Source of the DNA: Candidatus Borrarchaeota archaeon
GTDB lineage: Archaea > Asgardarchaeota > Sifarchaeia > Borrarchaeales > Borrarchaeaceae
Reading direction: 5' to 3'
Assembly (NCBI GenBank): GCA_016840315.1
Contig: JAEOSO010000003.1
Coordinates: 1 to 39,263 of the forward strand
DNA length: 39,263 nt
Made by a program: the position numbers and the translations under genes. How positions within the stretch are numbered: position 1 is the stretch's first letter; every line of letters starts with the position of its first letter. The notes beneath the pieces were generated by a model, which saw only the letters and a list, made by a program, of their open reading frames with translations, searched no databases and was not told the DNA's origin. Below, piece after piece: positions 2,039-36,357 of this stretch.

Positions 2039-4081
2039 TTATCTTCTAAATATTTCAATACATGTAAGACTCATTTTTTCGTACTCTTTGCTATTGACCA
2101 GTTTTTGTTCGAACAGCTGCTTTAATCCATCATAGATCATTGTCTCGATCTCTTTAACCTTTAAAAAATTGTTTTCATTACAAACTGTGTCGAAAATTCT
2201 TCTGAGTTCTTTACGTTCCTTCAATGCTGTTTCTAGACGCTGTTTAACATTATCGAAAAAGAGCGGATCAATACTGACTGATACTTTTTTGCTCAGAGAT
2301 TTATATTTCGAATGGAGGTAACAGGGTGGAATCACAAAAAATCTCGTTCCTTCCTCATCTTCTTTGTTGACGAATTTTGTGACATAACACGGCAAATAAG
2401 AAATAACAGCGTGCTTTGTAAGAGCGGCAGGAATAGACCCTGAAGGAACGATGAGTTTATTGAGATCTTCCAGTTCTTCATTTATTCCTTTTTTCAAGAT
2501 CCTAATCATTTCTAAGAGATTATCTCGCTTGGATTCTAACATTCCACTTGAAACGGATATTGAAGCAAGTTTTTCTTCAAATTCTTTTTTTAGAAGAATA
2601 ATACGTTCATTTTGCTCTGATACTAAGTTGTTGTATTTCGCGAGAACTTCTTTAATTTCTTTATGAAGAGAATATTGAAGATCATCAAATTTCATCTCAA
2701 TCTTGTTAAGTGTATCTTCCGTATCATGGAATGCTGCTTCAATACTATTTAGTAAAAGTCTCTTTTTTCGTATATTTTCTCTAAACTCTGCTTCAAATTC
2801 TTCGTGTGCCTTTGAAGGCGTAAACTGCAAGATTTGTCCAGAGAATTTTATAAGTGATTTTGTGATTTCGTCTAATATCCTTGCTTCTTTTTGAAAATTG
2901 TTATTAAATTCTTCAATTTTGCGGTGTGTATCATTTTTTTTGCTCTCAATTTCCTTTTCTCGCTGCTTTACAAATTTTTCAATTGTCTTTTGCACTTCTT
3001 CTTTTAGAATTCCATGTTTATTCGAAAAATCCTCTTCAATTTCTTTTACTTTACTCTCAAGTTCTCTCTTCCAATCATTCGTATTAGTTATGATAATATT
3101 TGCAAGTTGTTCTAGGCTCTGTGTGGCTAATTGGTTTAATTGAAAATGTTCTTCAAGTTTGGATCCATGTATAACTGCTTTATCCTTCGACAAAACAGAA
3201 CGAAGAGGTTCACTGTATATTTTGGAAGGTTCATAATACTGTACAGTTGGCAATATATTTAACATTGCTTCTAAAAAGTCAGGTTCAATTAGTGCATCAA
3301 TTTTAAATTCTTTTTTAGACATTTGATCGAGCAAAACTTCACATTTGTCGAGAGCATAAAGAGAATTAGATGCAGATGTTTTTAAAATATCTTCGAAAGA
3401 TATGAGATTGATCGGAGTTGTAATGGCCTTTTTTTGTGAGGGTATTGCAAATCCATCAACTATTACAGATCCTTGATTAGTTTTTATTATCCAAAAAGGC
3501 CATAAAACTTTAGCTAAATATTCGAATGATTCAATAGGTTTCTTACGTAATCTTCCTCCTCCCTTTTCTCTCACGTCCTCAAATATAGCGAACATAAGGG
3601 CAATTTCTTTTTGAAAATTGGCAATTTCTTCGCCATTCTTATCTACAAGGAAAGGAATAGCTATTATATGTTCCATAATTTGTTCTTGAATCGCTTGAAC
3701 GATATTATCAACCTCAGTTTCGAACTCCTTAAAGACACTTACCTCTCCATTCCAATTTTTTAGAAAAGAAGCCCCATATTTCTCCACAAAACTCGTTTTA
3801 ATCTCTTCTAAAACTGTTTTGAACGTACCAAGCTGTTTTTCATCATCTCGATCTATGCTCATCGAAAAAATAAGATCATACATTGGCTCATAAGAATAAA
3901 GAAACTTAAGATTTTCCATGTCCATAATCTCTACAGATTTTTCACCTAACTCTGAAACAAAGGTGAAAATAGCTGATGTAAAGCTACTTAATAGATCATC
4001 GTCTAAGTTAAAAGATCGTTGAGTCCAACTGAAGATGTTTTGACCAGAGCTTTTTAAGATAAGAACATTATGAATTGGCAT
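2039..4081 (-). CDS. Longin-like N-terminal domain plus long coiled-coil protein of unknown function
   Basis: N-terminal beta/alpha pattern MPIHNVLILKSSGQNIFSWTQRSF..DDDLLSSFTSAIFTFVSEL..EIMDMENLKFLYSYE..YDLIFSMSID...FKTVLEEIKTSFVEKYG, followed by heptad-rich Lys/Glu helices. Confidence 0.75.
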   Translation of the reverse strand: MPIHNVLILKSSGQNIFSWTQRSFNLDDDLLSSFTSAIFTFVSELGEKSVEIMDMENLKFLYSYEPMYDLIFSMSIDRDDEKQLGTFKTVLEEIKTSFVEKYGASFLKNWNGEVSVFKEFETEVDNIVQAIQEQIMEHIIAIPFLVDKNGEEIANFQKEIALMFAIFEDVREKGGGRLRKKPIESFEYLAKVLWPFWIIKTNQGSVIVDGFAIPSQKKAITTPINLISFEDILKTSASNSLYALDKCEVLLDQMSKKEFKIDALIEPDFLEAMLNILPTVQYYEPSKIYSEPLRSVLSKDKAVIHGSKLEEHFQLNQLATQSLEQLANIIITNTNDWKRELESKVKEIEEDFSNKHGILKEEVQKTIEKFVKQREKEIESKKNDTHRKIEEFNNNFQKEARILDEITKSLIKFSGQILQFTPSKAHEEFEAEFRENIRKKRLLLNSIEAAFHDTEDTLNKIEMKFDDLQYSLHKEIKEVLAKYNNLVSEQNERIILLKKEFEEKLASISVSSGMLESKRDNLLEMIRILKKGINEELEDLNKLIVPSGSIPAALTKHAVISYLPCYVTKFVNKEDEEGTRFFVIPPCYLHSKYKSLSKKVSVSIDPLFFDNVKQRLETALKERKELRRIFDTVCNENNFLKVKEIETMIYDGLKQLFEQKLVNSKEYEKMSLTCIEIFRR

Positions 4082-13751: not shown

Positions 13752-14213
13752 TTGAGCTTAAGTGATGAAGATTATTGGGCCAGGCTGGCTTATGAGACAA
13801 AACATGTCAAAAGTGAAGAACCTAGTTTTAAACCAGAAAAAGGAGATATTCGCAAATGGCGAGGGTTCATTCTTGGTACTGAGTGCTACGACGGCGGTGT
13901 CTTTGAGATTGAAATTGAAATCCCCAGACGATTTCCTTTCGCACCTCCCCTTGTGCAATGGCATACAGAAATCTGGCATCCAAATATTTACAAAGGGAAG
14001 GTCTGTGTAGGGATATTGGGCAAAGATTGGGCACCGTCAAACAGTATAGTGGATGTAATAGAGACACTGCGTATTTTGTTAGCAGCACCAAATCCTTTGG
14101 ATCCGCTTAATACTTCAGCTGGAAATCAAATGGAAAATGATTTAGAACGCTTCAAAAAGACAGTCAAGGACTATATCGGGCGATATGCTACGTGGGAAAA
14201 ATTGCAACGATAA
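13752..14213 (+). CDS. Ubiquitin-conjugating enzyme E2-like protein
   Basis: TTG start with AGAGGGA upstream. UBC fold signature: FEIEIEIPRRFPFAPPLVQWHTEIWHPNIYKGKVCVGILGKDWAPSNSIVDVIETLRILLAAPNPLDPLNTSAGNQM; HPN at 76-78, predicted catalytic Cys85. Confidence 0.96.
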   Translation: MSLSDEDYWARLAYETKHVKSEEPSFKPEKGDIRKWRGFILGTECYDGGVFEIEIEIPRRFPFAPPLVQWHTEIWHPNIYKGKVCVGILGKDWAPSNSIVDVIETLRILLAAPNPLDPLNTSAGNQMENDLERFKKTVKDYIGRYATWEKLQR

Positions 14214-14297
14214 TGTAACCTTAAAAACCAAAATAATGAAACATTATTTCTCATCATATTCTATAATTCTCTATAATTAATAATCTGATGATCTAGA

Positions 14298-15311
14298 ATG
14301 AGTTCAAATAATGATAGATATCATAGGCAAACCATTATGCCGAACTGGGATCAAAGTAAAATTTCTAAAGCCACAGTATTCCTCGCAGGTATTGGGGCTC
14401 TTGGTTGCGTCGTAACAGAAATCTTGGTTTCGATGGGCATCGGTAAACTAGTTATTGTTGATTTTGATACAGTAGAACTTTCAAATTTGAATCGTCAATG
14501 GCTGTTTCGTGATGAAGATGTTTCGCGGCCAAAAGCCTTAGCTGCAAAAGAACGTCTGAAAGTTCTTAATCCATCTGTTGATGTTATTGTATTTAATCAA
14601 AAGATAGAGGACATTCCCGAAAGTGTTTATTCATCCTGCGATCTAGTGGTTTCTTCGCTCGACACATTTGAAGCGCGTCGCTGGCTGAATTCTATGTGTG
14701 TTCATGAAGGAATACCACTTATCGATGGAGGACTTTATCAATTCTTTGGACACGTCCAAGTAATTATTCCGGGTTCAGATTTAGCTTGCCTTGAGTGCCA
14801 GCCATTGATCCCCGAAAGCCGATTGCAACAGGTATGCACTCTTCCCGGAGAACCGAGGAGGAAGGAAAGAGAGGAAACGCAGAAAGAGGTTTTTCCATCT
14901 GTTGGAACCATTTCTGCTGTAATCGGAGGGATCATGAGTCAAGAAACAGTGAAATTACTAATAGGCTTGGGCACTCCCATTGGATATCTCTTTTACGATG
15001 GTCTTTCCCAAGAATTTACAAAAATTGATCTAAAAAGAAGATTAGATTGTTTTGTTTGTGGTGAAAGGTGGAAACTTGATGAATTGAGATATTTTGCAGA
15101 AGGCGATGAAAAAATAAGCGAATTAAAAAAAAGGCTTAGCCTAATCTACGGCCTCTCCGACCCAACATTGATTGTGGGAACAAAAATAGTTGATGACAAA
15201 ATGACTATTACTGAAGCGGAAATATCGGAGCATGCACCGATCTTCGTTATAGATGCGACTGTGGCGAAACCGATACGAATAAGAGTTGTCTTAACTCCTG
15301 ATTCTGTTTGA
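14298..15311 (+). CDS. Ubiquitin-activating enzyme E1-like / ThiF-MoeB-UBA family with C-terminal extension
   Basis: RYHRQTIMP, GIGALGC nucleotide-binding loop, VDFDTVELSNLNRQWLFRDEDVSRPKA, zinc ligands CLEC and CFVC, VCTLPGEP (predicted catalytic Cys180), and about 80 aa after CFVCG resembling an E1 ubiquitin-fold domain. Confidence 0.96.
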   Translation: MSSNNDRYHRQTIMPNWDQSKISKATVFLAGIGALGCVVTEILVSMGIGKLVIVDFDTVELSNLNRQWLFRDEDVSRPKALAAKERLKVLNPSVDVIVFNQKIEDIPESVYSSCDLVVSSLDTFEARRWLNSMCVHEGIPLIDGGLYQFFGHVQVIIPGSDLACLECQPLIPESRLQQVCTLPGEPRRKEREETQKEVFPSVGTISAVIGGIMSQETVKLLIGLGTPIGYLFYDGLSQEFTKIDLKRRLDCFVCGERWKLDELRYFAEGDEKISELKKRLSLIYGLSDPTLIVGTKIVDDKMTITEAEISEHAPIFVIDATVAKPIRIRVVLTPDSV

Positions 15312-15357
15312 TACCATTATCTTATTCCAAAATCAAGATTAATTGGAAGGAAATCTC

Positions 15358-16149
15358 ATGTCATTTAAATTAGCTATCGTTGGCAAAGGTGGCGTGGGTA
15401 AGACTTTTTTAGCAGGAACTTTGGCTAGGTTATTTGCAAACGATGGAAAACACGTTCTTGCCGTCGATGCAGATCCAAATATGAATTTACATGCTACAAT
15501 GGGGATATCCAAAACAGAACTTCCGATTCCTATTGGTGGAATGAAAGAACTCATTGAAGAAAGAACAGGAGTCACTGCAGGGACATCAGGAATGTTTGTT
15601 TTGAACCCGCGAGTTGATGATATACCCGACAAGTATCATGTTTCAAGAGACGGCGCAAAACTTATCATCCTCGGCACAATCGAAACTGCCGGTGGTGGTT
15701 GTATTTGTCCAGAAAGTGCTCTATTACGTGCCTTGTTAAGTCACATTATACTGAAGCTTGATGAAATTGTGATAATAGATTTTTATGCTGGTCTTGAGCA
15801 TTTAGGGCGAGGTACAAGTAAAGGCGTGGATGCAATGATAACTGTCGTGGAGCCTGGAACCAGATCACTAGATCTGGCGAGAAGAATTAATTCTCTCGGA
15901 GTTAGCCTTGGCGTTCCTCGCAGTTATGTCGTGGGGAATAGAATTTCTAACGAGCAGGAAGAAAAATTCATAATAAATGCAGTAAACGAGTTTAATTTAG
16001 AATTATTAAGTATCATTCCAAGAGACCCCGCAATTATTCAATCTGACATCCAGGGAATAGCACCGATTGATTTTGCGCCTGAATGTCCAGCGCTCGTTGC
16101 AGTTCAAAAAATCAAAGATATTCTTGAATATAAACTTGCTCCACAATGA
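15358..16149 (+). CDS. CooC/MinD-like P-loop ATPase (CO dehydrogenase maturation-type)
   Basis: KLAIVGKGGVGKTFLAGTLARLFANDGKHVLAVDADPN deviant Walker A; GGGCICPESALLRALL CxC motif as in CooC. ATG at 15358 preferred over TTG at 15343, which sits in the GGAAGG ribosome-binding-like site. Confidence 0.9.
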   Translation: MSFKLAIVGKGGVGKTFLAGTLARLFANDGKHVLAVDADPNMNLHATMGISKTELPIPIGGMKELIEERTGVTAGTSGMFVLNPRVDDIPDKYHVSRDGAKLIILGTIETAGGGCICPESALLRALLSHIILKLDEIVIIDFYAGLEHLGRGTSKGVDAMITVVEPGTRSLDLARRINSLGVSLGVPRSYVVGNRISNEQEEKFIINAVNEFNLELLSIIPRDPAIIQSDIQGIAPIDFAPECPALVAVQKIKDILEYKLAPQ

Positions 16150-16276
16150 AATTAGATTCACGCGATATAACTGACGCATTTAATTCGGATATCTTAGGAT
16201 GTTTCAATTTCTGTGTATATCTTGGTGTATTGTCTGAGATAATACGAATATTAAAGACGTCATTTCTAGTTTATAC

Positions 16277-16990
16277 ATGTATATTCACTTTTTTATGGCG
16301 ACAAAAATGACACAATCTGAAATTGAAGTCGATGGGAGCATTATTATTAATGGAAAGACTTATCCGGCTATAAAACTTCTTGAAGTACTTAATAAACTCG
16401 GTGCTCTTTCCTTTGATGATGAAAGCGCACAACTTATACTCAATGGCATGCCTGTTAAACCACTTTATAGATCCACGAGAAAAAATGCGTTTTCACTTTT
16501 ATGTTATCATAGTCTAGCGAATTGTTGCCCTCGGACTCAAGAATGTGATAAACGCGATAGTACGCTTAAAACGCTTAACATCTCGTTAGAAGAATATTCT
16601 CGCATTAAAGAAGAGCATCATTTACAATTCCTTGAACTTGTACCTTCGTATTCACATTCTACATATAGTGAGGACTCTCCGTCTCGTACTACTGATGATG
16701 TAGATCTATCATCTTTTTTTGGCATACCCAATAATGAGTCAAATTCAGAAAAAGAAAATACTGACGATTTCCTCAAGGGATTTCTTTCGGGAAATAATTT
16801 TGAAAGCAATAATTTATGGAACAACTCTTTAAATCTAAAAGAAGTACGTTATGGTAGAAAAAACGTTCTTCCTTCAACAGAAGCAGGCTTACGTCATTTA
16901 AATTACTCTAGAAAATGTCCACGTTGTAAAAAACGCAATACTACTGAGGATAAATATTGTTCTCGTTGTGGAGCAGAATTTAGAGATTAA
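16277..16990 (+). CDS. Unknown protein with C-terminal zinc ribbon and central Cys cluster
   Basis: CPRCKKRNTTEDKYCSRCGAEF zinc ribbon at C-terminus; CYHSLANCCPRTQEC cluster in the middle. Start may be at the later ATG (MATKMTQSE). Confidence 0.7.
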   Translation: MYIHFFMATKMTQSEIEVDGSIIINGKTYPAIKLLEVLNKLGALSFDDESAQLILNGMPVKPLYRSTRKNAFSLLCYHSLANCCPRTQECDKRDSTLKTLNISLEEYSRIKEEHHLQFLELVPSYSHSTYSEDSPSRTTDDVDLSSFFGIPNNESNSEKENTDDFLKGFLSGNNFESNNLWNNSLNLKEVRYGRKNVLPSTEAGLRHLNYSRKCPRCKKRNTTEDKYCSRCGAEFRD

Positions 16991-17039
16991 AGTGTTTTCA
17001 TGCAATCAAAAGCTTTGGATAGCCCTTAACTGACTAAAT

Positions 17040-17090
17040 CTGCACCCGACAGTGCAGATCGGTGAATTGTCGTCTTTTCATAATTCACCG
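17040..17090. terminator. Two tandem hairpins between convergent genes
   Basis: CTGCAC(17040-17045)/GTGCAG(17052-17057) and CGGTGAATT(17060-17068)/AATTCACCG(17082-17090), lying between gene ends at 16990 (+) and 17104 (-). Confidence 0.5.
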
Positions 17091-17103
17091 CCGCTAAATT
17101 TCG

Positions 17104-18114
17104 CTAAATTAGTCCAAGGTGGATTTCTCGTCTCTCCTTGTAAGTTTCTGGGTATCCCTCTAATAGAAATAGATACTTAGCCTTAATTTCTGCTTTGATT
17201 TTTTCTAGAGTTTCGATTTCCGCATCTGTAACACCCCAATTAAAAATGCTGTACTCTCGTCCAATTCTATTTAAATCCTTGGTAAAAGCTAGTTCTGAGA
17301 GAAATCGTTGATAATCTGGGGTCTCAGGTTGTGGGAGCACAGGTGTTAGGGGAAGAATGTTAAATAATAATTGGTCTGCAACATCCGATAATTTCATCAC
17401 GTCTTGTCCGAAGTGCTTTTTAGCACCTTCTAAATAATCTGTTTCAGGATCTATATCGACGGCTATAAGGACCTCGATATCTGGATTTGATTCTTTAATT
17501 GAATTTGTGATATTAGAAAGAAATGAAGAAATTTTTTCAACACGCCATTCATACCATTGAGAAAGAACATCGGGATCGCTTAGTAATGTATCAAAAACGA
17601 ATTCTCTCTCTAAGTTTGTAAGCTCTGAAAATTCTTTTCTACATGTTTCACAAAAACAATACTCCTGTCTGGCAAATTGATTGTCCATTAGTATAAGACC
17701 ATTTATTGGAAAGTTCATGATTTCCTTAACCACTGCAATCAGATATTTCCAATAACTTTCCTGAACAGGGCATACGAAAGTACCTACGGGAGCTCTGGTA
17801 ATTCCCGATCTATAAGCACCATATTTTGGATCATGTGCAAAATACTGATCTACAAAGGTTGAAACGATGGCGTACACATCAATATCGATTTCAGATGCAA
17901 TCTGAGTGAAGCTTGGGAAAAATTCAGAATACTTATCGTCGGTTGGCGCGCTCATGCTTCTAAAAAGCGTATATCCTGTATCTCTCTTTGCCATTAAGGC
18001 AATTTTTTCAAGGAACGAGCCATAGCGCGCAAAAAATTCGTCGGAAGTCTCATTAAGCGTATAAGGATCAAGTACGGGAATATGCCCTCTTGTTAATATT
18101 TCACGGAGTTCCAT
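17104..18114 (-). CDS. Putative TIM-barrel glycoside-hydrolase-like protein
   Basis: GLILMDNQFARQEYCFCETCRKEFSEL pattern resembling uncharacterised barrel glycosidase-like proteins; no clear catalytic assignment. Confidence 0.5.
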   Translation of the reverse strand: MELREILTRGHIPVLDPYTLNETSDEFFARYGSFLEKIALMAKRDTGYTLFRSMSAPTDDKYSEFFPSFTQIASEIDIDVYAIVSTFVDQYFAHDPKYGAYRSGITRAPVGTFVCPVQESYWKYLIAVVKEIMNFPINGLILMDNQFARQEYCFCETCRKEFSELTNLEREFVFDTLLSDPDVLSQWYEWRVEKISSFLSNITNSIKESNPDIEVLIAVDIDPETDYLEGAKKHFGQDVMKLSDVADQLLFNILPLTPVLPQPETPDYQRFLSELAFTKDLNRIGREYSIFNWGVTDAEIETLEKIKAEIKAKYLFLLEGYPETYKERREIHLGLI

Positions 18115-18187
18115 AAGATCACCATTAAACTAAAAACAAACTATATGTGAACTATACCTTTCTTAGATTTAACATTTTCCATCTCGA

Positions 18188-20815
18188 TTACATGAAAAGG
18201 TCTAGACGTCGTATACCGATAATAGATCCAAAATCTATATTTAACGCATCAAGCACTTGCACAAAGGTAGATTCTACAGCATTTTTGTATTTCTCTGTAT
18301 CTATCTCATCAATCGAAGCTATTTCTATAGGTTTTACACCGGGTTCTCCCTTTATTTTTACAAACGAAATAATGCTACCGGGCTCGACATCTCTTTCTAA
18401 TAATCTCGCAGCTTTTACATGTTGAGGCGTCGTCTTTTGATAGCTTTTCAAATGGCGAGTCATCTGGACGCGAAATGCCAACTCTTCTAAAGAATATTCT
18501 AAATTCTTCAATTTATCTAAGCATGTCTTTACTATCGTCCGTATCCGATTCCTAGCTGTTTCGAAATCATCTTGAACTTTCACTTCAGAAAGCACATCCA
18601 TCATTTCAAAAAAGGCGTCCTGTAGGAATAAGGGAGTATGACGTTTTTTACCTGTTAGCCCCTTAATATCAACAGAGCCGCTTCCGTACACGCCTAAATA
18701 ATTCTTTTTCCTCTCGGAAAGAGCAACATATCTATAGACCTTGTCAATATCCAAATCAATTTCAAGTGTTTCTTGGCACCATCGCTTTAGATCTTCGATT
18801 TGTGACTCTGAGGGATTTTCTAAGAAAACGCTGTCCGTATCTCCATAGATAACAGAGATGCCCATATTCTTAGCCTTTTCGATAGTTTGTGTGATGATAT
18901 GTCTCCCAAGAGCTGTTGTGCTTTCAGCTACAGGCAGGCAGTATAAGGGGAAGTGTTCTGCGCCGAAGACGCCATAGAATGCATTAATAATGAGTTTTAA
19001 AGCTTGTTGAACCACATAGAAGAGTTCTTGTGTTTCCTTGCCTAATATTCTGTTTTTTGACTGTGGCTTAAACCATTTCAACCTTATGTCTCTTAGAAAC
19101 CCGATAATAAGACCTGCCAGGCCTCTTTGCTTTTTACAAACCCAATGGTCTGTGTCTGGTATGATGTTTTGTTTGCATTCCTCATGTGGACATCTTACGG
19201 TCTCATAACTTAAATTATGGACTTTTATGATGGAAGGATAGAGTGAGGCGAAATCTAGGACTACTACATCAAAATGGACGCCCGGCACAGGATCAATGAC
19301 AATGGCACCCTTGTATTTTTTTCCTTTGATAATGGCCTGCGTTGAGGCCTCTTCCCCTTTTGCCTCCTTAATGTCTTCTGGTCGTGGAATCAAAAATCCC
19401 TTCTTTCTATGTTCATAATAAAATAGATTTTGAATCCATGAGGAAACACCTTGACGTGTGACATCTTCAAGTGGCAAATGGGAAATTCTCATCAACAACA
19501 TTATCAATTTCCAGACAAGGTTCTGACTGTAACGAGTCAGATCTAAGGTAATTTCCCCATCTCTATAACAGTAACTTGCTAAATCTAAAAGAGGTAATTT
19601 CGAAAGAGGCTGCTCTACTTTTATTTTTTCTATGCCCAGCAGCGCTTTGGTTACAGCATTGAGATCTGTAGTTTTATATTTTGCAGAAAACGCATATATT
19701 TGCACAGCCCGGTTATTAAAAAACCTATATAGATCCACATGGAAATTTCTCACTAGAGCTACAAAATCTTTTCTAATAATTATTGGGATTTCATCGCGTC
19801 GAAATCCTAGGTGGTTGAGTGCACGATTATATAAATAGAGTAAATCGAACTTATCGCCATTGTAAGTTAAGATAACAGGAAATTCATCGAAAACCTGAAA
19901 GATTTCCCGGATAAGTTCCTTTTCTTCATTAAAATATTCAATGCTTACACCCTCAAGATTTTCTTGAATTTCTCCACGTTCAAAATCTTTGTTATCTAGA
20001 AGAAGTATTCGTTTTGTTCCATCTGAAGCTACAATGGAAATACATCCAACAGGGAAATTGGCTTGTTCAGGTCGAGGAATGGCATCTACAAAAGGTGAAA
20101 TAACCTCAATATCGATAGCCGCACGCTTTATATCGGGGATAGGTGACAAAAAGAGAGGTAAACCTTCTACTAAAAGTTCTTTCACTTCATTTGGCTCTTC
20201 TTCAAATAATCGGCTTATTTCATCTTTTATTTTTTCTGGTACAGTTGTTACATTCTTAAGTCTCTCATCAGTGACTTCATATAGTAAGCCTGGTGTTAAC
20301 TCTAAATCCGCTATGTAACATTTATGATAAGGTATATTTGCTTCCCATGCTGCTGGTAACAACTCTCGAATAGCCCCGGTTGTCCCGCCTATAGAAAGTG
20401 GATCTTTGGCTATTATCTTTGTCATTTGTGTAGTTCTATCCTGTAAAAGATCTTGCTTTTCAGCAGTTTGTATATCAAGAAATCCTCGATGCCCAGTTAT
20501 TTTCGTATTTTTCTTCAATTCCTCGATAGGAATATTTGAAAAACAATAGGGGTGATGTTCTGAGTTATCGTACCAAAAATGAATTAAATGATCTCTTGGA
20601 TTGTAAAATCGTGCTGCTGCACAGCCCTTTTTTCCATTATATTCAACTGAAAGCAAATAAGCAGCATTCTCAGCCGTAAGAGGTGCTTTAACTTCTACAT
20701 CATTGATTTTTTCCGTTTTTATGATCTCTTCTTCTTTTTTTATGGGCTTTTCTTTCTTTTTACGCGGTTCATGGGTTTCAAAAAACTGATCAAGTGGTAA
20801 TTGTGAAGCCCCCAT
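18188..20815 (-). CDS. Family B DNA polymerase, PolB1/Dpo1 type
   Basis: Exo motifs AIDIEVISP, TYNGDKFDLLYLY, YCYRDGEITLDL; motif A LDFASLYPSI, motif B LKLIINAFYGVFGAE, motif C YGDTDSVF; KKNYLGVY; TPQHVKAARL. Overall similarity to crenarchaeal Dpo1 recognised from memory. Confidence 0.97.
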   Translation of the reverse strand: MGASQLPLDQFFETHEPRKKKEKPIKKEEEIIKTEKINDVEVKAPLTAENAAYLLSVEYNGKKGCAAARFYNPRDHLIHFWYDNSEHHPYCFSNIPIEELKKNTKITGHRGFLDIQTAEKQDLLQDRTTQMTKIIAKDPLSIGGTTGAIRELLPAAWEANIPYHKCYIADLELTPGLLYEVTDERLKNVTTVPEKIKDEISRLFEEEPNEVKELLVEGLPLFLSPIPDIKRAAIDIEVISPFVDAIPRPEQANFPVGCISIVASDGTKRILLLDNKDFERGEIQENLEGVSIEYFNEEKELIREIFQVFDEFPVILTYNGDKFDLLYLYNRALNHLGFRRDEIPIIIRKDFVALVRNFHVDLYRFFNNRAVQIYAFSAKYKTTDLNAVTKALLGIEKIKVEQPLSKLPLLDLASYCYRDGEITLDLTRYSQNLVWKLIMLLMRISHLPLEDVTRQGVSSWIQNLFYYEHRKKGFLIPRPEDIKEAKGEEASTQAIIKGKKYKGAIVIDPVPGVHFDVVVLDFASLYPSIIKVHNLSYETVRCPHEECKQNIIPDTDHWVCKKQRGLAGLIIGFLRDIRLKWFKPQSKNRILGKETQELFYVVQQALKLIINAFYGVFGAEHFPLYCLPVAESTTALGRHIITQTIEKAKNMGISVIYGDTDSVFLENPSESQIEDLKRWCQETLEIDLDIDKVYRYVALSERKKNYLGVYGSGSVDIKGLTGKKRHTPLFLQDAFFEMMDVLSEVKVQDDFETARNRIRTIVKTCLDKLKNLEYSLEELAFRVQMTRHLKSYQKTTPQHVKAARLLERDVEPGSIISFVKIKGEPGVKPIEIASIDEIDTEKYKNAVESTFVQVLDALNIDFGSIIGIRRLDLFM

Positions 20816-20847: not shown

Positions 20848-22005
20848 TTATCCATTTTCATTTGAAACGTCATTTAGTATCCTATCAATTCTATCAATTA
20901 CGCTCTGCCAACTATATCTCTCTGCGTTTTCTAAACTCTTTTTCACTAATTCATTATAAGTTAGTGAATCATCAATAAGTCGTAACATTTCGTTCTTTAG
21001 GGAAATCTCGTTATTTGGTTCAGCAACAACTCCTCCCAATCCGATTGTTTCAGTAATTGCAGTACAATCTGATCCAATAACTGGCGACCCACAGGCTTGA
21101 GCTTCTAAAATTGGCAACCCAAACCCTTCGTAGAGGCTTGGTATGACAAAAATATCACTTGCTGCATAATAACTAGGTAGTTCTTCCTCTGAGACGCGCC
21201 CTGCAAATATCACTATATCCGCTATGTTCAATCTTTTTGCAAGCATCTCAAGGTTTTTTCTTTCTCTTCCACTCCCTACTATAATTATCTTAATTTTTAC
21301 ATCTTTGCGTTCATTTTTTATTAGTTTTATTGTCTTTAAAAGCCATTGCAATCCTTTATGCGCCTCTAAGCGTCCTACGTAAAGAAGGGTCTTAGCATCT
21401 CCGATGTTTAAGCTATTTCTAACATTTTTTCCAGATATAGTAGGATTAAATCGATTCAAGTCGACGCCATGAGGCACCACTTCACTATTCACACCATATC
21501 GTTGTTTTACTTCGCCTCTGATGTATGAACTATGTGTTATAATCCTATCAAATTCTATAAATGAAAGCCAAAATCTGAATAGAGCATCGTACTTTAATAG
21601 CGATAGTTTATCTAAGCCTCTCTTATAAATAGAAAACGTAAGACCATGATGATCAAAAACACAAGGTTTATTATAAAGACGTTTAATGAGAAAGATCAAC
21701 AAAAAATCGATAAACGAGTGTGTTTCTACACAGAATACATCATATTGCTTTAGAAAACTCAATGCGCTTTTAAGATAAGGGATCAAAGAAATTTCATGAA
21801 TTAGGGGCACCCTTGAAAAAACTCTTGAAAATGAGAATATCTTGTAGTTAGGTAGCTTTCTGATTGCCTGAAAATCGATCCATGGGCCTGTAACGAATAC
21901 AGTCACGTTATGACCTTTTTCATCCAAGCCCCATGCAATTTTCTTGATGTAATCTCCCCTGCTATCCGGTGACTTAAAATAATGGGTTAAGAAGGCTATA
22001 TTCAT
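20848..22005 (-). CDS. GT4-family glycosyltransferase
   Basis: VVPHGVDLNRFNP, LLYVGRLEAHKGLQWLLK, IFVIPSLYEGFGLPILEAQACGSPVIGSD. Confidence 0.95.
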   Translation of the reverse strand: MNIAFLTHYFKSPDSRGDYIKKIAWGLDEKGHNVTVFVTGPWIDFQAIRKLPNYKIFSFSRVFSRVPLIHEISLIPYLKSALSFLKQYDVFCVETHSFIDFLLIFLIKRLYNKPCVFDHHGLTFSIYKRGLDKLSLLKYDALFRFWLSFIEFDRIITHSSYIRGEVKQRYGVNSEVVPHGVDLNRFNPTISGKNVRNSLNIGDAKTLLYVGRLEAHKGLQWLLKTIKLIKNERKDVKIKIIIVGSGRERKNLEMLAKRLNIADIVIFAGRVSEEELPSYYAASDIFVIPSLYEGFGLPILEAQACGSPVIGSDCTAITETIGLGGVVAEPNNEISLKNEMLRLIDDSLTYNELVKKSLENAERYSWQSVIDRIDRILNDVSNENG

Positions 22006-22148
22006 GTATTACACCATTATTTTGTAATTAAAGATACTCCCTTCTTTTTTCTATTCTTTATGTAAGTTCAAAGATAGATTTTACAGGTTTACTAAGATAT
22101 CTTCCATCGCTAAAAAATCTTTAAAAACACTTTAGATATCCAGATGGA

Positions 22149-23486
22149 GTGGTGTACTTAGTGAACAAAGTCCTCCAAACCGTGATTGAATTATTTCAGA
22201 AATATAGGAAAGTCATCATTATTGCTTTTCTGGTTTGCTTTTCTATTTTATGTGTCATTTTTTTACAAGAGTCTCTTTTTTTTATCAATAGATTAGTCAT
22301 AATTCCTGCGGAGTATTATAAAATACACGGACCAATTTACTTGATATCCATTTCAATTCTAGTAATTTCACCTATAATCTATGCAATATTGTATAAATAT
22401 GAATTCAAAATTACTTCAATTCAATTTCCTGAACAAATACGATTAGAATATCTTCTAATTCTACATGCGTTCGTCTCCTTTTTTGCTTTGTGGAGAGGAG
22501 GAGATAAATGGGTTGGTCCAGATCTCCCTACTTATTTCTCAACTGTTAATTTTATCGCGCAAGATTTTAATATCATTATATGGAGTTTTTTTAATAATCC
22601 TGAAGGTCTTGATAAATATTTGATTGGAGAACCTTTGGGATATTTTCTGTTAGCAAGTATAGTCGTCATTGGTTTACCGATTCATTTCATTTCAATTATT
22701 TCCATCATTTTTAGTTTAGTAAACCTGAGCATAACTCATAAATTGTTACTTCAACGCTTTGATGAGGCTATCGCATCAACGGGGGCCTTAGTATATGTTT
22801 TTTCATCTGTAATCCTCAAAATAGAAGCTGATCTTCTAAGAACTCTATTTGCTATTACATTTGGCTTGTTGGCGCTATATTTTTGGGAGCGAAAACGAAT
22901 TCTAACTGCAGTTTTCTTTGCTTTATCCTTGGCAACTCACATCGTGACCGCAAGCCTCTTTTTCATCTCATTGCTTTATCTTGCAAAAGAAGAAAAATGT
23001 CTAAAGAAATTTTCTTTAATTGTAGCGGTTGGATTATTACTTTCATTATTGCCTATTTGGCTAATACGTGATCCATATCTTGTTTATTTTATTTCTATCG
23101 GAAGAATTCAAAGATATCTTGCAGCGGGTACTTTTCTTGGTTCTTCTGATCGTCATCCCGCGTTATATCCACTTTGGACGGATGCTATAATTATACCTAC
23201 TGTTAGAATAATTACTTCAATTGGTCTTTTCCTGATCTATTATGCCTTTAATCACTCCAATGTATCTAAAACACACTGGAGTGTTTGGGTTATAGCAACA
23301 ACTCTCCTTGTTATTATAGGTTATATTTTCCCATATTTTCGCCCGATTCGTTGGGCACTCTATTTAGGGTTCGCGTTAATGTTTCTAATCACACCCTCTC
23401 TAAAACAAGAAGACAAGACTCTATTCTTAGTTTTTCTGATAATTTGCTTTGCTGCATTCGCTGCACATCTTCAAGTAGCGTATTAA
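22149..23486 (+). CDS. Multi-pass membrane protein, possible GT-C-like
   Basis: About ten hydrophobic segments; GPDLPTYFSTVNFIAQDF, LATHIVTASLFFISLLYL. Confidence 0.7.
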   Translation: MVYLVNKVLQTVIELFQKYRKVIIIAFLVCFSILCVIFLQESLFFINRLVIIPAEYYKIHGPIYLISISILVISPIIYAILYKYEFKITSIQFPEQIRLEYLLILHAFVSFFALWRGGDKWVGPDLPTYFSTVNFIAQDFNIIIWSFFNNPEGLDKYLIGEPLGYFLLASIVVIGLPIHFISIISIIFSLVNLSITHKLLLQRFDEAIASTGALVYVFSSVILKIEADLLRTLFAITFGLLALYFWERKRILTAVFFALSLATHIVTASLFFISLLYLAKEEKCLKKFSLIVAVGLLLSLLPIWLIRDPYLVYFISIGRIQRYLAAGTFLGSSDRHPALYPLWTDAIIIPTVRIITSIGLFLIYYAFNHSNVSKTHWSVWVIATTLLVIIGYIFPYFRPIRWALYLGFALMFLITPSLKQEDKTLFLVFLIICFAAFAAHLQVAY

Positions 23487-23596
23487 CAGCGGGATAATTA
23501 GCGAAACGTTCAATTGTCTATCTTACAGATTGTATTATAAGAAGGATTATACGGAATTTATAACTTATAATAAGTTTTCCCTTCATTGACGATTGC

Positions 23597-23630
23597 GACG
23601 GAAAGTCCGCTTCCGAAAGATGGGGTAGTT
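23597..23630 (+). mobile_element. Second candidate orphan IS200/IS605-like right-end stem-loop remnant
   Basis: GACGGAAAGTCCGCTTCCGAAAGATGGGGTAGTT; shares GGAA(A)GTCC..TCC..GGGGTAGTT with 4931-4962. No transposase nearby. Confidence 0.3.
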
Positions 23631-23632
23631 CG

Positions 23633-25000
23633 CTAGTTTTTAATCAGATTATAGATGAGTATATCCGGTCCATTTCGCGTTAGTTCATCTATTTTTCTAG
23701 GGAGCGCATATTCCTGAATATCGGCTAAAGGTGATGTAAGTGCTCCAATAGTCTGTGTAAATATGCTAAATCCAAGAAGTAGGTAAAAGAGTATCCAGAA
23801 ATATTTGTTAGATGAAAATTTTTCTAGAGTTTTTCCTAATGGCAATACAAATGATGGAAGAATATCCGTTAAAAATCGTGGACCAAAAGACAATCCACCA
23901 TGCCACCAAGTATATGTTGAATAGAACGACAAAATTACAAGAAATGAAGCAATAAACAAGATGGCTTCTTCTTTATCTGATTTTAAAAAATAGTAAAACC
24001 CAGGAATTGATAAAACTAAAACGGGGGAATATACGAATAGCCCCCTTCCAGGACTAAAAAGAAGGCCATAAATACCGAACAAGGGATTTGTAGAGAAAGT
24101 GGATGATATGGATGTATAATCATAAATTAGATCATAGTAATATCCAGTAATGAATGGATTATCAAAACATATGTAATTATAGAGGAGGAGTAAAAAGACG
24201 GCAGGTAATGTTCCAAAAATGAAAAAAATGAACGCATTTATCCTTTGAGATTTTAATGCTAGATATATTAAAACAGGTATAACTAAGAAAATATTTGAGA
24301 CTCTTACAGTAGTAGCTATACCTATTACGATTCCTGCCAAAAAAAATCTGTTTGTTTTTTCATATTTTGTGGCTAAAATCACTAGATATAAGCCGAAGAA
24401 GTTTAATAACATTGACAAGGATTGAGCGTAGAAAGTTTTTGCATATACCCATGAGATTGTGCCAAACGCAAGAGTTATTGATGTCAAAAGGGCTGAATTA
24501 TCGCTGAATTCTAGTTCATTTAAGAGCTTGTGAAACAAGGTAATAGTAAAAGCTGCAGAAATTGAACTTAGCATAGCCATTGGGATATATGTAATTGTAA
24601 TGTACGACATGCTTATTCCGAAAAAAATTAGGACGTTCCACATGCCTTTTCCAATTAAGAAGAAGGGTATCGCTATAAACGATAAACCTGGTGGCAATGT
24701 GGAGTAATAATGCCCATCGTAATAACCAACGCCCATTTTAGAATCTAGTTTCCAAGGTGTGTACGTTATCATAGCTTGATCTATGTACAGGCTGTGATAA
24801 TCAGTAATTGATACGGTCAATAACCAATAACTAGATTCATCAGGGGCATAATAATGTGCAATTGAAACAGAATAAACTATGAGTGCTAGAAGAAATAATT
24901 TAAATCTTGTTTTGTTATACCAGACTAAATTTAAAACAAAATCTACAATATCATTCAATTTACTGCGAATTGAGAAGGTTCTCACTCTGGATAACACCAT
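23633..25000 (-). CDS. GT-C-like multi-pass membrane glycosyltransferase-type protein
   Basis: DESSYWLLTVSI early acidic motif, many TM segments; paralogous to the truncated ORF at 1-1284. Confidence 0.8.
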   Translation of the reverse strand: MVLSRVRTFSIRSKLNDIVDFVLNLVWYNKTRFKLFLLALIVYSVSIAHYYAPDESSYWLLTVSITDYHSLYIDQAMITYTPWKLDSKMGVGYYDGHYYSTLPPGLSFIAIPFFLIGKGMWNVLIFFGISMSYITITYIPMAMLSSISAAFTITLFHKLLNELEFSDNSALLTSITLAFGTISWVYAKTFYAQSLSMLLNFFGLYLVILATKYEKTNRFFLAGIVIGIATTVRVSNIFLVIPVLIYLALKSQRINAFIFFIFGTLPAVFLLLLYNYICFDNPFITGYYYDLIYDYTSISSTFSTNPLFGIYGLLFSPGRGLFVYSPVLVLSIPGFYYFLKSDKEEAILFIASFLVILSFYSTYTWWHGGLSFGPRFLTDILPSFVLPLGKTLEKFSSNKYFWILFYLLLGFSIFTQTIGALTSPLADIQEYALPRKIDELTRNGPDILIYNLIKN

Positions 25001-25049
25001 AAATTTCTTATGACTTTGTTCTTTCTATTTTGGTAATAGAGGTAGTTTC

Positions 25050-26816
25050 ATGGTTAAACTCTGGCAATCTACCACATTCAGATTATTGTCACTGTTTTGC
25101 ATTTCTGTTTTTATTAGGGTTATTCCCACTCGAAAATGGGTTTATGGAATGGATGAAGCTATGCACTTAATTGAAATCTCTTCTGTATTGACAAAGGATC
25201 TCATGGGTGCAAAACCTGGTTATATCCTCTTATTAACATTCACCATTTCATTACTTGGTAATCAGAATCCTGTATTCATTCGCCTACTAACGATACTTTT
25301 TGCAAGTTTTCTTGTATTTGTCGGTTATTCCTTCGGTAAGAAACTTGGTGGAAATACCGTTGGAATGCTTACTGCAGTTTTTTTGACTTTTCATCATAAA
25401 ATATTTGACCTTTCCTATTGGATTATGACCGATATACCATTTACATTTCTTTCATTTCTTGCCCTTTATCTTATTTTTAGAAATTTTGAAATGTTAATCA
25501 CTTTAAAAAATAATGTAAAATTATCAGTCCTTGCAGGCATTCTTTGTGGACTTTCTTATCTGGTTCGGCAAGTGGGTATCTATCTTATTCTCTTAGCGAT
25601 TATTTCATATTTCATAATTCGGGGTCCATCTTTTTTAAAGAGATTCAAGAATGGAATGATGTTTTCTTCCGGTCTGGCAGTTATGTTAGCGCCATGGTTT
25701 CTTTGGAATTTTATTCATTATGGCGTCCTTGATACTACCGTGAACTTTGTAGACGTCTCCTTTATTTCGAACCTATGGCCTTTGGTGTTTCTAGGTGTTG
25801 GTTTGTGCGGGGTATTCTTGTTAATTTATAGAAAAATTAATTTCCGATCCATCCATCTTAATTTATCCATAATCTTTGCCACTATTATTTATGCACTAAT
25901 ATTATTCCTTTACTTGAATTTTACAGTGAACAATGCTTTCCTTTCGCGATTAATTTTTTATCTTGTTCAAATCCCTGGAATCGCCTTAGGCTTCCATTTA
26001 ATTAATCCTTATGGAGTGAGTTACCTTGCAATTATTATCTCAATAATCACATTTCCAATATTACTCATTGGACTCGTAAAGGCATATGAAATGAACAAAA
26101 CACTTACAATTATCTCTATAATTTCATCCGGGCTTCTAATTCTATTACTAGGTGGAATTATTTTTCAATCTGAGCGATATATGTTCCCTATAGCACCATT
26201 ATTATCCACTTTTTTGATTGTTGGAGTCCTCAAACTTAAAGATATTTTCCTTTCTCTTATCGTCGGGCCTCTCTTATCTCGGCAAGTGTTTCTTATGAAA
26301 TATTTTTCCGCAGTTCCCTTTTCATCCATGCAAATAGTGACAGTATCCTTTCTCATTATTATTCTAATGCCAAACATTGTAGCAGACGGGTTAGCAAATG
26401 AATATTATTTGTCATTCGATGAGATGGTTGTTACATCACCTCTATGGCGGGAATATATCACAGCTGCCCTTTGGTTCAAGGAAAATAGTAATCAACAAGC
26501 AAGAGTTATGACCTTTAAAAACTTTGATTTTGAGTATTATTCTCATAGAACATGTATCGCACCACATCCGCAAATTTACGATGAGTATTATAAGAACTTT
26601 GGAGAACAAGCATATATCACAGAGTTAATGAAAGAAATGCAGAGCCGCAATATTACACATATCGTTTTTGGTCCTTTTGGATACTCAGATCGTCATCTCT
26701 TCTGGATTTCTGATCCTAATGAAGCATCCTCTTATTTAGATGTGATATATCTTGTGGAGTCGCCCAAAGTAATCATTTACGAAATAAAATGGTCCGAATA
26801 CTCTGTTAATGCATAA
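25050..26816 (+). CDS. PMT/ArnT-like GT-C membrane glycosyltransferase
   Basis: YGMDEAMHLIEISSVL luminal acidic motif, YWIMTDIPFTFLSFLALYL, GLSYLVRQVG, multiple TM helices and soluble C-terminus. Confidence 0.82.
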   Translation: MVKLWQSTTFRLLSLFCISVFIRVIPTRKWVYGMDEAMHLIEISSVLTKDLMGAKPGYILLLTFTISLLGNQNPVFIRLLTILFASFLVFVGYSFGKKLGGNTVGMLTAVFLTFHHKIFDLSYWIMTDIPFTFLSFLALYLIFRNFEMLITLKNNVKLSVLAGILCGLSYLVRQVGIYLILLAIISYFIIRGPSFLKRFKNGMMFSSGLAVMLAPWFLWNFIHYGVLDTTVNFVDVSFISNLWPLVFLGVGLCGVFLLIYRKINFRSIHLNLSIIFATIIYALILFLYLNFTVNNAFLSRLIFYLVQIPGIALGFHLINPYGVSYLAIIISIITFPILLIGLVKAYEMNKTLTIISIISSGLLILLLGGIIFQSERYMFPIAPLLSTFLIVGVLKLKDIFLSLIVGPLLSRQVFLMKYFSAVPFSSMQIVTVSFLIIILMPNIVADGLANEYYLSFDEMVVTSPLWREYITAALWFKENSNQQARVMTFKNFDFEYYSHRTCIAPHPQIYDEYYKNFGEQAYITELMKEMQSRNITHIVFGPFGYSDRHLFWISDPNEASSYLDVIYLVESPKVIIYEIKWSEYSVNA

Positions 26817-26851
26817 CTCGGCTAATTTGGAAAACTCTGGAGGAAAAATGA

Positions 26852-27667
26852 GTGCTCCATGAAATAGCAAAAAGAGCTAAAGGATTTTATGAAGAGCAAC
26901 TCAGTTATTTGACAAAAAAATCAATTCAAGAGTATGAAAAAGAAACACTTGATGGTTTGTGGAATTATTTAAGAATTTTTGATCATACTGAGCGGTTTTT
27001 GTGTATCAAATCACTCCTAACTGACCAGTATAACAAAAATACATCTTTTGTGGACGTAGGATGCGGAAGAGGACCTGTAATTTGGCATCATTTGGGATTA
27101 TTTTCAAATTACTTAACTGTAGTAGGACTTGACATTAATCTTGTTATTCTAAAGTGTAATAAGGAATTATTTAGAAAAAAGTATTCTTCGGTTCCAATTG
27201 ATTTCTGTTTATGTGACGCATGCCACCTGCCTTTGAAGGACAACTCAATTGATGTCTCAGTCTGTACTGAAGTGCTTGAACATCTTCCCGAATATATTTC
27301 TGCAATTAAGGAACTTTCTCGAATATCTAAGAAGCAAATCATACCGTCTATTCCGGATGCTGGTATTTCTGGGATTGATTACGAGTTTACCAAATCGGGC
27401 CATCTGCATGTTATAGAGACTTCACAATTAGTTTCTTTTTTAAGAAGAGAGGGATGGATGAAGCAAAAGCATTATCGAATTGGTGTAATATGGCGATTCA
27501 TTGAGAGAAAATTAATAAGACGAATCGAGAAGAACTGGCATAGTTTGGCAGTACAATTAGCAAAAATTATTATAACATTGGAATTGAAATTTGGCCGAAT
27601 CCTTGTAAATCTTCGACTACCACGACAATTTAGCGGTTTTCACATCTTTAAGTTCATAAAGAATTAA
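26852..27667 (+). CDS. SAM-dependent methyltransferase (class I)
   Basis: FVDVGCGRGPVIW, VVGLDIN, CDACHLPLKDNSIDVSVCTEVLEHLPE. GTG start preceded by GGAGG. Confidence 0.9.
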   Translation: MLHEIAKRAKGFYEEQLSYLTKKSIQEYEKETLDGLWNYLRIFDHTERFLCIKSLLTDQYNKNTSFVDVGCGRGPVIWHHLGLFSNYLTVVGLDINLVILKCNKELFRKKYSSVPIDFCLCDACHLPLKDNSIDVSVCTEVLEHLPEYISAIKELSRISKKQIIPSIPDAGISGIDYEFTKSGHLHVIETSQLVSFLRREGWMKQKHYRIGVIWRFIERKLIRRIEKNWHSLAVQLAKIIITLELKFGRILVNLRLPRQFSGFHIFKFIKN

Positions 27668-27684
27668 GACTGGAGTTCAAACTG

Positions 27685-30015
27685 ATGCGAAGTTCTCTTT
27701 TAGGAATAGGTATCTTAAGTTTTTCACATTTTCTATTGTTTCTTTGGAGATATGAACTTCTGCCTTTTTCTATAGTATGGTGTATTGTTTTAATTTGCTT
27801 AGGTTCTATTATCTTAATAATCGCTGAAATTTTGTGGCAAGACGTTACGAATTTTTTTGGATTGATAACTGCCTCTCATAGATATGCACTAAGCTTCATT
27901 ATTCTCATCGCAATATTAGCTTATCTCACGTTTGTAGGCCCGGGATATATTCATGCAGACGGTATTTCTCATAGTTTTAAAGTATGGTACTTGAGAGAGT
28001 CTTGGCTTAAAGGGAATTTTTATCCTCTTTGGTGTCCCTATTGGTATTCAGGATATCCTTTTTTGGAATTTTATGGACCTCTTTTCTATGTATTTGCCGC
28101 TGTACTTTCCTTGAGTTCAAATTGGATGATTGGTTCAAAATTGGCAATATATCTTGCATGTATAATGTCTTCTTTGGCCATGTATGGCTTAATTTACGTT
28201 GTAACACAAGATAAGTCTGGAAGCATAGTAGGAGGGATAGCATATACCCTTACTTACTATAGATTTCCTTTATTGACTAAATACGGACATCTTGCTAGCA
28301 GTTTAGTGCTACTTTTTATTCCACTCCTATTTTTATTTCTCGAACTGGCCATCAAAAAAGAAAAGCAAGTGTTTGCAATGTTTGCAGGACTTTGCTGGGC
28401 TGGAGTTTTCCTTTCTCATCAAGGAGCTGGATATATGGCTTCTTTGTTAGTATTTTTTTATCTTATTATGTCATGTGCTATAAAATTCAATCTTAAGAAC
28501 ATTACATTGATAGGAACTGTAGGTTTAATCTCTATGGGCGTAGCGTTAGGCATATCTTCCTTCTTTATTATTCCTTACTTTATCAACGGCACAGATGCAA
28601 ATACAGGAATACTTGATCCACATTGGTTAGGATATCCTTTATCCTTACCTTTAATTCTAACAAGAGATTTTATTCATGTTAATCAGCCATTTCCAGTGTA
28701 TGTTGGGAATTCTATATTGATACTCGCTTTCATAGCGGTGATTCTTCGTAGAAATCGTGCTTCCATCATTTATACAGCCTCTCTAGTTTTTTCGTTCTTT
28801 TTGGTTCTTGGTTCAGAACTGTCATTTTATACTAGAATTCCCCTTATTACCAGCCTTGAGTTTCCCTATCGTTTCCTATTATTAGTTTGCTTTGTGGCAT
28901 CAGTATTATCAGGTATTACAGTTGCGTCTCTTAAAGACATTCAAAAACCGATTTCTGGCTATTTAAGAGAATTTATGTCAAATCCTATCCTCAAGAAACG
29001 CATAATAGTTCTATTAATAGTCATTATGATAATTGATTTGTGGCCAGGAACGTTAATTTCTAAAAATAGACCTCAAGAGTGGTTAATTGATGACGACTGG
29101 ATGAAAACATACGAATGGCTTAATCAACAGCCTGGTCCCTATAAAACCCTCAGATTTGGCAACCCCGGTCCAAGTTACGTAGTTTTTGCTTCTGTAGTAG
29201 GAGATGCCCCCGTTTTATATGGTTATTTTAGGCAATCAGCGAATAAAGATTATTTAGAGTTTCTCACTCTATTTACAGAGGAAATTAAATCGTTAGAAAA
29301 TACGCCTCAAAGGGGCCTTCTCAATCCGCTTAAACTTTTAGGAGTCAAATATGTGCCCTTGGATAATACTCTTAGTTATGCTCAATACTTGCATGAATCA
29401 TCACAATTAGAAGTAGTACAGACTTTTGGCAATGTGTCTGTCCTAGAATTTAGTGAATATACCTCTCCAATCATTGTTTCTCAGAATGCTGAAATTCTGT
29501 CGGGGGACAATGAAATCGAGTCTTTTTACAAACATGTTACCGATCCAAACTATGATCCTTCCAAAATGATTTTTCTTAAAGAAAACCAACTTAATAACGC
29601 TAAAGAACTCCCCCTTCAATCGCCTGTAGATTCTATAGGCAGTCCAGACGATTTTAACTATAAAATTTTAAATTTAGATGTCAAAGAAAGCGCCATTTTT
29701 GCAAGAATATATACTTCTGCTCCATCTTTTGTATTTTTCAGTTTCAGTTTCTTTCCTGGCTGGAAAGCCTTTGTTGATGGAAATAAAAGTGAAATTTTAA
29801 TCGCAGAACCCTTTTTCATGTGTTTATACATTGACAAGGGCGGTACGCATACTATATCGCTTAAATATCAACTTAGTACACCTAAAATAATTGGATCAAT
29901 AATTACTTCATTTACTCTTCTGATAGTTTTCTTTGTGATTTTTTGGTCCTATCGACAGGCAATTAGAGAGATAATAGACCAGAGTGCATTCAGAAAATAC
30001 AGAGGACGGAAATGA
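27685..30015 (+). CDS. Large multi-pass membrane protein with C-terminal extracytoplasmic domain (YfhO-like)
   Basis: 776 aa, numerous TM segments; C-terminal SFSFFPGWKAFVDGNKSEILIAEPFFMCLYIDKGGTHTISLKY. Confidence 0.8.
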   Translation: MRSSLLGIGILSFSHFLLFLWRYELLPFSIVWCIVLICLGSIILIIAEILWQDVTNFFGLITASHRYALSFIILIAILAYLTFVGPGYIHADGISHSFKVWYLRESWLKGNFYPLWCPYWYSGYPFLEFYGPLFYVFAAVLSLSSNWMIGSKLAIYLACIMSSLAMYGLIYVVTQDKSGSIVGGIAYTLTYYRFPLLTKYGHLASSLVLLFIPLLFLFLELAIKKEKQVFAMFAGLCWAGVFLSHQGAGYMASLLVFFYLIMSCAIKFNLKNITLIGTVGLISMGVALGISSFFIIPYFINGTDANTGILDPHWLGYPLSLPLILTRDFIHVNQPFPVYVGNSILILAFIAVILRRNRASIIYTASLVFSFFLVLGSELSFYTRIPLITSLEFPYRFLLLVCFVASVLSGITVASLKDIQKPISGYLREFMSNPILKKRIIVLLIVIMIIDLWPGTLISKNRPQEWLIDDDWMKTYEWLNQQPGPYKTLRFGNPGPSYVVFASVVGDAPVLYGYFRQSANKDYLEFLTLFTEEIKSLENTPQRGLLNPLKLLGVKYVPLDNTLSYAQYLHESSQLEVVQTFGNVSVLEFSEYTSPIIVSQNAEILSGDNEIESFYKHVTDPNYDPSKMIFLKENQLNNAKELPLQSPVDSIGSPDDFNYKILNLDVKESAIFARIYTSAPSFVFFSFSFFPGWKAFVDGNKSEILIAEPFFMCLYIDKGGTHTISLKYQLSTPKIIGSIITSFTLLIVFFVIFWSYRQAIREIIDQSAFRKYRGRK

Positions 30016-30016
30016 A

Positions 30017-31108: not shown

Positions 31109-31165
31109 ATCAAAAAGAAATCAAGAATCCTTACTGAAGATAAGGGATTTTGTTAGGTAGTCTTT

Positions 31166-32017: not shown

Positions 32018-32033
32018 CAAGTTTTCCCTTATC

Positions 32034-33281: not shown

Positions 33282-33377
33282 ACTGAATCAATTTTTGTTA
33301 AGTAGTTTTTATTTAAAAGATTTCCATAAGAAAAATAAGGCGATTAAATCCAAATACTAAGTTGTCTCAACTTATGG

Positions 33378-34604: not shown

Positions 34605-34634
34605 TTATCCGAAAACTCAATTGTTGAGATGTCT

Positions 34635-36173: not shown

Positions 36174-36357
36174 TTAGAGCGCGTCCTTTGATCGTACTAA
36201 CTTCTTTTTTTTTGTAAAAGACATGATGACTGTTATGTTTAACTTGTGTTTTCATAAACTCATAATTACGAAATGCGTTATCACCGTTTTTCAGGACTAA
36301 ATTTAACAAAAAAATAAAAAAGTTGTGCCTTCTTCAGCATAATCACTAGGCAATTAG

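Follow-up and report, generated by a model that had tools for sequence, protein, structure and literature searches.

Among archaeal ubiquitin systems, those of Caldiarchaeum and the Asgard archaea are the closest to the genes considered here. In Caldiarchaeum subterraneum, the ubiquitin operon specifies a single-chain E1 that bears a ubiquitin-like domain at its C-terminus, an E2 with an HPN motif and a catalytic cysteine, a small RING protein, a pro-ubiquitin with residues past its GG and a JAMM/Rpn11 protease (James et al. 2017, PMC5654768; Fuchs et al. 2018, PMC6043591). This cascade, i.e., JAMM trimming, E1, E2 and small RING, has been reconstituted in vitro (PMC5654768, PMC6043591), and the presence of a C-terminal ubiquitin-like domain on archaeal E1-like proteins was described by James et al. 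(2017, PMC5654768). Odinarchaeum, Heimdall- and Helarchaea were the first Asgard archaea for which a ubiquitin-ESCRT cluster was described (Hatano et al. 2022, PMC9192718). Asgard ubiquitin binds the UEV of ESCRT-I, and in Lokiarchaeota the ubiquitin and ESCRT genes are found in two separate regions (PMC9192718).

Here we analysed a stretch of 39,263 nucleotides from a Candidatus Borrarchaeota archaeon (contig JAEOSO010000003.1), referred to as the window, which belongs to a metagenome assembly of 1.7 Mb in 181 contigs that is 77% complete. It carries adjacent E2 and E1 genes, both on the + strand and separated by a gap of 84 bp. An initial annotation, made from the sequence of the window, had described this pair as lacking a modifier, a RING protein and a JAMM protease nearby, and had proposed that the modifier is either encoded elsewhere or that the pair uses a non-standard modifier or target. 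We conclude that the pair very probably represents the E1 and E2 of an ordinary ESCRT-linked Asgard ubiquitin system, the cluster of which has been split into two loci in this genus.

The E2 gene (13752..14213, + strand) starts with TTG and encodes 153 aa. The motifs read in the initial annotation, i.e., HPN, Cys85 and PNPLDPLN, were verified, and the Pfam UQ_con profile matches the protein at E=2e-32, with a score of 112 bits where the cut-off is 27. Residues H76, P77 and N78 of the HPN motif (13977..13985, + strand) and the catalytic cysteine Cys85 (14004..14006, + strand) are invariant in an alignment of 12 E2 orthologs, and the profile of these orthologs has UBE2D/Ubc4-type E2s as its top match in the PDB. 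The protein therefore has the UBC fold, HPN motif and catalytic cysteine of the E2 in the Asgard/Caldiarchaeum ubiquitin conjugation system. Three relatives of the same genus encode an E2 of equal length, also with a TTG start, at 86-88% identity. Within the 77%-complete assembly it is the sole UQ_con protein with a catalytic Cys, the other UBC-fold protein being a Cys-less UEV, encoded on contig C122, that has Ser at the position matching Cys85. A lone extra A-type E2 copy with HPN and Cys intact occurs in two of the relatives (L091 8199-8663 in G001 and L092 8258-8722 in G003); it is the sister of the window E2 in the tree, and none was found in the window assembly.

The E1 gene (14298..15311, + strand) encodes a ubiquitin-activating enzyme of 337 aa with a single adenylation domain (Pfam ThiF, E=6e-61), and the ATP loop, CxxC/CxxC zinc ligands and VCTLPGEP motif given for this E1-like protein in the initial annotation were likewise confirmed. 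All + strand, these are the GxGxxG nucleotide loop at residues 31-36 (14388..14405), in which G31, G33 and G36 are invariant, the first and second zinc CxxC, C164/C167 (14787..14798) and C251/C254 (15048..15059), and the catalytic-type cysteine C180 in VCTLPGEP (14835..14837). Across the alignment of 19 E1 orthologs, C164, C167, C180, C251, C254 and D122 occur without exception, and a catalytic role for C180 is suggested by analogy with the CTxxxxP-type motif of E1 enzymes. The tail, at about residues 263-319 (15084..15254, + strand), is a C-terminal ubiquitin-like domain according to hhalign: in a comparison using the ortholog alignment it matched an alignment of Asgard ubiquitins with a probability of 95% (P=1.7e-8), and the N-terminal region of the E1, used as a control, gave 1.4%. 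At the sequence level, the protein thus has every feature of the E1 in the Asgard/Caldiarchaeum system, from the adenylation domain and the CxxC zinc pair to the catalytic cysteine and the ubiquitin-like tail. Orthologs are found at 84-85% identity in Ca. Borrarchaeum yapensis, Ca. B. weybense and Ca. Sifarchaeum marinoarchaea, which belong to the same genus-level group as the window archaeon, and at 40-49% across the Asgard phylum. An AlphaFold2 model of the E1 (four qualifying sequences) gave a pLDDT of 33, and the E1 fold was judged from sequence profiles only.

Searched against the PDB, the profile of the 19 E1 orthologs had the ubiquitin E1 (UBA1) as its top match and the NEDD8 E1 (UBA3) as its second. 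Eukaryotic UBA1/UBA3 E1s and UBE2D-type E2s are therefore the best profile matches of the pair among solved structures, and the E1s share the CTxxxxP-type catalytic cysteine motif; however, eukaryotic E1s are two-domain or heterodimeric, whereas the window E1 has a lone adenylation domain and its catalytic-cysteine segment is short. With MoeB, ThiF and UbaA adenylyltransferases it shares the ThiF superfamily, but those proteins do not have a ubiquitin-like domain at their C-terminus. In favour of seeing the two proteins as relics, or as sulfur-carrier (MoeB/ThiF-like) enzymes with no role in conjugation, one could cite that ThiF-family E1 proteins are common and that MoeB and ThiF are the nearest NCBIfam models, though both matches fall far under their cut-offs (for MoeB, 148 bits against 266, which places the protein outside the MoeB/ThiF adenylyltransferases). 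We regard this as exceedingly unlikely, given that the active-site residues of both enzymes are invariant, that the E1 has the ubiquitin-like domain absent in MoeB, that both genes are conserved across the genus at 85-88% identity, and that the genome encodes a separate, short MoeB-like protein on contig C128. In the 77%-complete assembly this short protein is the only ThiF-family member besides the window E1.

The observation that no modifier, RING or JAMM gene lies near the pair was borne out, as a search of all frames across the 39 kb of the window with family models gave no significant ubiquitin, JAMM or RING match, and none of its frames of at least 25 aa is ubiquitin-, JAMM- or RING-like. 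Short frames ending in GG were considered as a hidden modifier; these are few, and all are fragments within other genes. The same family models applied to contig C122 of the same genome found ubiquitin, JAMM and RING at E=3e-39, 2e-68 and 1e-25, respectively, in a span of 5 kb that encodes RING-H2, ubiquitin, JAMM, UEV, Vps28 and EAP30-family (Vps22-like) proteins. The ubiquitin (L009 8582-8821; 79 aa, PF00240 46.6 bits) ends in RTEGG followed by HD, with R73-T74-x-G76-G77 invariant in the alignment. In the same span, the small RING-type E3 (L009 8900-9283; 127 aa) shows the RING-H2 pattern CxxC...CxxC...HxxxH...CxxC; it matches PF13639 (5e-5) and PF14446 (1e-5), each under the curated cut-off, and an Asgard RING model at 83 bits. 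The JAMM/Rpn11-type protease (PF01398, 51 bits) has an intact metal site, with E27, the HxH at 84/86 (H84-S-H86), S94 and D97 invariant in the alignment, and the UEV protein has a Vps23-core match. A second, short JAMM protein of 148 aa (L008 1477-1923, contig C129) is remote from the ubiquitin genes and adjoins a deacetylase-family gene.

The window supplies the E2 and E1, and contig C122 adds the modifier, the ligase, the protease and the readers, so that between them the two places encode every component of one ubiquitin system. A genome-wide search for a GG-ending modifier and a JAMM protease, as the initial annotation had proposed, located both together with the RING gene, so that the first of its two alternatives, a modifier encoded elsewhere, is the one that holds; a ubiquitin/RING/Rpn11 cluster elsewhere in the genome accounts for the pair and removes the puzzle of the missing parts. 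All parts lie in one genome with their active-site residues intact, they are orthologous to those of other Asgard archaea, and the E1 co-occurs with ubiquitin. Compared with the Asgard ubiquitin-ESCRT cluster, the genome is alike in ubiquitin, E1, E2, RING, JAMM, UEV/Vps23, Vps28 and the Vps22-like protein, and its E1 and E2 are orthologous; the difference is that, in the best assembly of the window genus, ~91 kb separate E2-E1 from the ubiquitin-RING-JAMM-ESCRT locus. The features of the Caldiarchaeum operon listed above are shared too, but the genes of the window genome are in more than one locus and ESCRT-linked. The window genome thus brings one more genus into the group of Asgard archaea in which ESCRT genes are accompanied by a full set of eukaryote-like ubiquitin components.

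By analogy with Caldiarchaeum biochemistry (PMC5654768, PMC6043591) and with Asgard UEV-ubiquitin binding (PMC9192718), the C122 JAMM would trim the pro-ubiquitin (...RTEGG-HD) after GG, and the window E1 would adenylate the exposed glycine and then load ubiquitin onto Cys180. From there ubiquitin would move to Cys85 of the window E2, and the C122 RING protein would promote its attachment to lysines of substrates. The mark may then be read by the Cys-less UEV/Vps23-like protein, which would pass cargo to ESCRT-I/II.

The pairing of the window enzymes with the C122 ubiquitin rests on orthology and co-occurrence, the two loci providing no operon evidence within the window genome. In a survey of 59 genomes, this E1 was present in 35 and this ubiquitin in 34; both were found in 33, only one of them in 3 and neither in 23 (Fisher P=5e-13, which is no true probability since the genomes are related and hence non-independent). 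The E1 and ubiquitin genes lie within 1.5 kb of each other in 26 of the 31 genomes that have both at resolvable positions, the exceptions being four genomes of the window genus and G014; two further genomes, with the E1 at a contig edge, are outside these 31. Of 15 E1 regions from outside the genus, ubiquitin adjoins E1 in 13, another is truncated where its contig stops, and in G014 the E1 is alone. A frequent gene order elsewhere in Asgard archaea is RING-Ub-E2-E1, and several of these regions have adjoining UEV, Vps28 and Vps22-like genes. In the tree, the window E1 and E2 group with ubiquitin-adjacent genes, far from a second family (B), although support is weak for many of the deep branches. 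A genome of the same class that is 80% complete (G004; L095, L094) has an RTEGG ubiquitin and a B cassette with no A-type E1 or E2 detected, which may reflect incompleteness or real loss.

This second family bears on whether the pair could serve another modifier, e.g., a ubiquitin-like domain ending in -STAG, rather than the C122 ubiquitin. Such a B-type cassette is present in three relatives of the same genus, and the edge of contig C80 in the window genome encodes a HerA-like ATPase whose ubiquitin-like tail ends ...IPASTAG. Nevertheless, we consider this very unlikely: in every B locus found the modifier adjoins its own E1 of ~410 aa, usually with its own E2 and JAMM as well where the locus is long enough, whereas it is the RTxGG ubiquitin with which the window E1 co-occurs, and a window-type E1 without a B-type E1 is found in 27 genomes. 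There is similarly little likelihood that the window pair would also charge further ubiquitin-like domains, e.g., the -STAG one fused to the HerA-like ATPase. The non-standard modifier is the B-type -STAG one, not that of the window pair, for which a non-standard modifier or target is a needless assumption without support. More generally, when a contig shows E1 and E2 genes with no modifier beside them, this says little in favour of a system that is exotic or works without a modifier.

Having all genes in one cluster is usual for these systems, though not defining, and the window genus departs from it, with E2-E1 apart from Ub-RING-JAMM in all four genomes of the Ca. Borrarchaeum / Sifarchaeum genus. 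The window genome is fragmented, at 77% completeness and 181 contigs, and the separation of the two halves could thus be thought an artefact of assembly or binning, the true chromosome having one cluster. The chance of this is close to nil in our judgement and it is refuted for G001, a same-genus relative of 8 contigs rated 100% complete in which the halves lie 91,201 bp apart on a single 1.3-Mb contig. Moreover, the window contig extends many kilobases beyond E2-E1 on each side, over genes for which relatives show synteny, and G002 and G003 repeat the same two neighbourhoods. The split is a real, genus-wide rearrangement, because G001 carries both loci on one contig with neighbours as in the window genome. 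It differs from the two regions of Lokiarchaeota in that the break falls inside the ubiquitin part itself.

The split state is probably derived. In two distant lineages (G010 and G011), genes for PolB, a deacetylase and a P-loop ATPase form a group next to the E1-E2 end of the cluster, the lone E1 of G014 adjoins PolB, and in the window genus a P-loop ATPase gene follows E2-E1 with PolB near. From these shared neighbours it therefore seems that the E1-E2 side kept its old neighbourhood and that ubiquitin-RING stayed with JAMM and ESCRT, a reading based on gene order. As the two-locus arrangement occurs genus-wide and once in a distant lineage, the cluster need not stay together.

The divergent B cassette (E1B-E2B-JAMM) was found in G001, G002, G003 and other Asgard genomes, in 15 of 59 at E<=1e-50 (L043 5380-12814 in G001; also L061, L071, L094 and L099-L112). 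Its E1 has ~410 aa, and in loci of sufficient length it is usually accompanied by an E2 of ~175 aa and a JAMM of larger size. B loci of the class Sifarchaeia have an extra membrane-anchored (transmembrane) RING protein. The C-terminus of the B modifier is (A/V/F)STAG rather than GG in 14 of the 15 genomes, followed by 0-3 residues, and in G039, the most distant, it ends in GG. By the B cassette there are also, in the window genus, HerA/VirB4-like ATPases with a C-terminal ubiquitin-like domain ending in ASTAG or SSRAG (L043 11072-12814, L061 1910-3718), and this HerA-like member is all that was seen of the B system in the window genome (G000; L010 238-2016). No description of the -STAG modifier was found in the open-access literature, a scope outside which subscription papers fall, and the -STAG cassette is possibly the most novel item met in this analysis.

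Two further window genes were considered as functional partners of the pair, the P-loop ATPase (15343-16149) and a zinc-ribbon protein (16277-16990); both resemble no part of a ubiquitin system and were treated as neighbours. The genes for PolB, the deacetylase-family protein and the MinD/NifH-like P-loop ATPase (window 15343-20815) recur by E1 in distant Asgard archaea (L047, L058; also L042). The zinc-ribbon protein has 237 aa with the ribbon at its C-terminus and a weak 'methanogenesis marker 9' match (28 bits against a cut-off of 96), and its relatives are found near PolB in L047 and L055. At 2039-4081 (- strand) the window encodes a coiled-coil protein of 680 aa, the N-terminus of which weakly matches the FUZ/MON1/HPS1 first longin domain (E=0.011, under the cut-off). 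Finally, a run of genes for glycosyltransferases, a flippase-like protein and large membrane proteins (20848-37584) is apparently a surface-glycan region.
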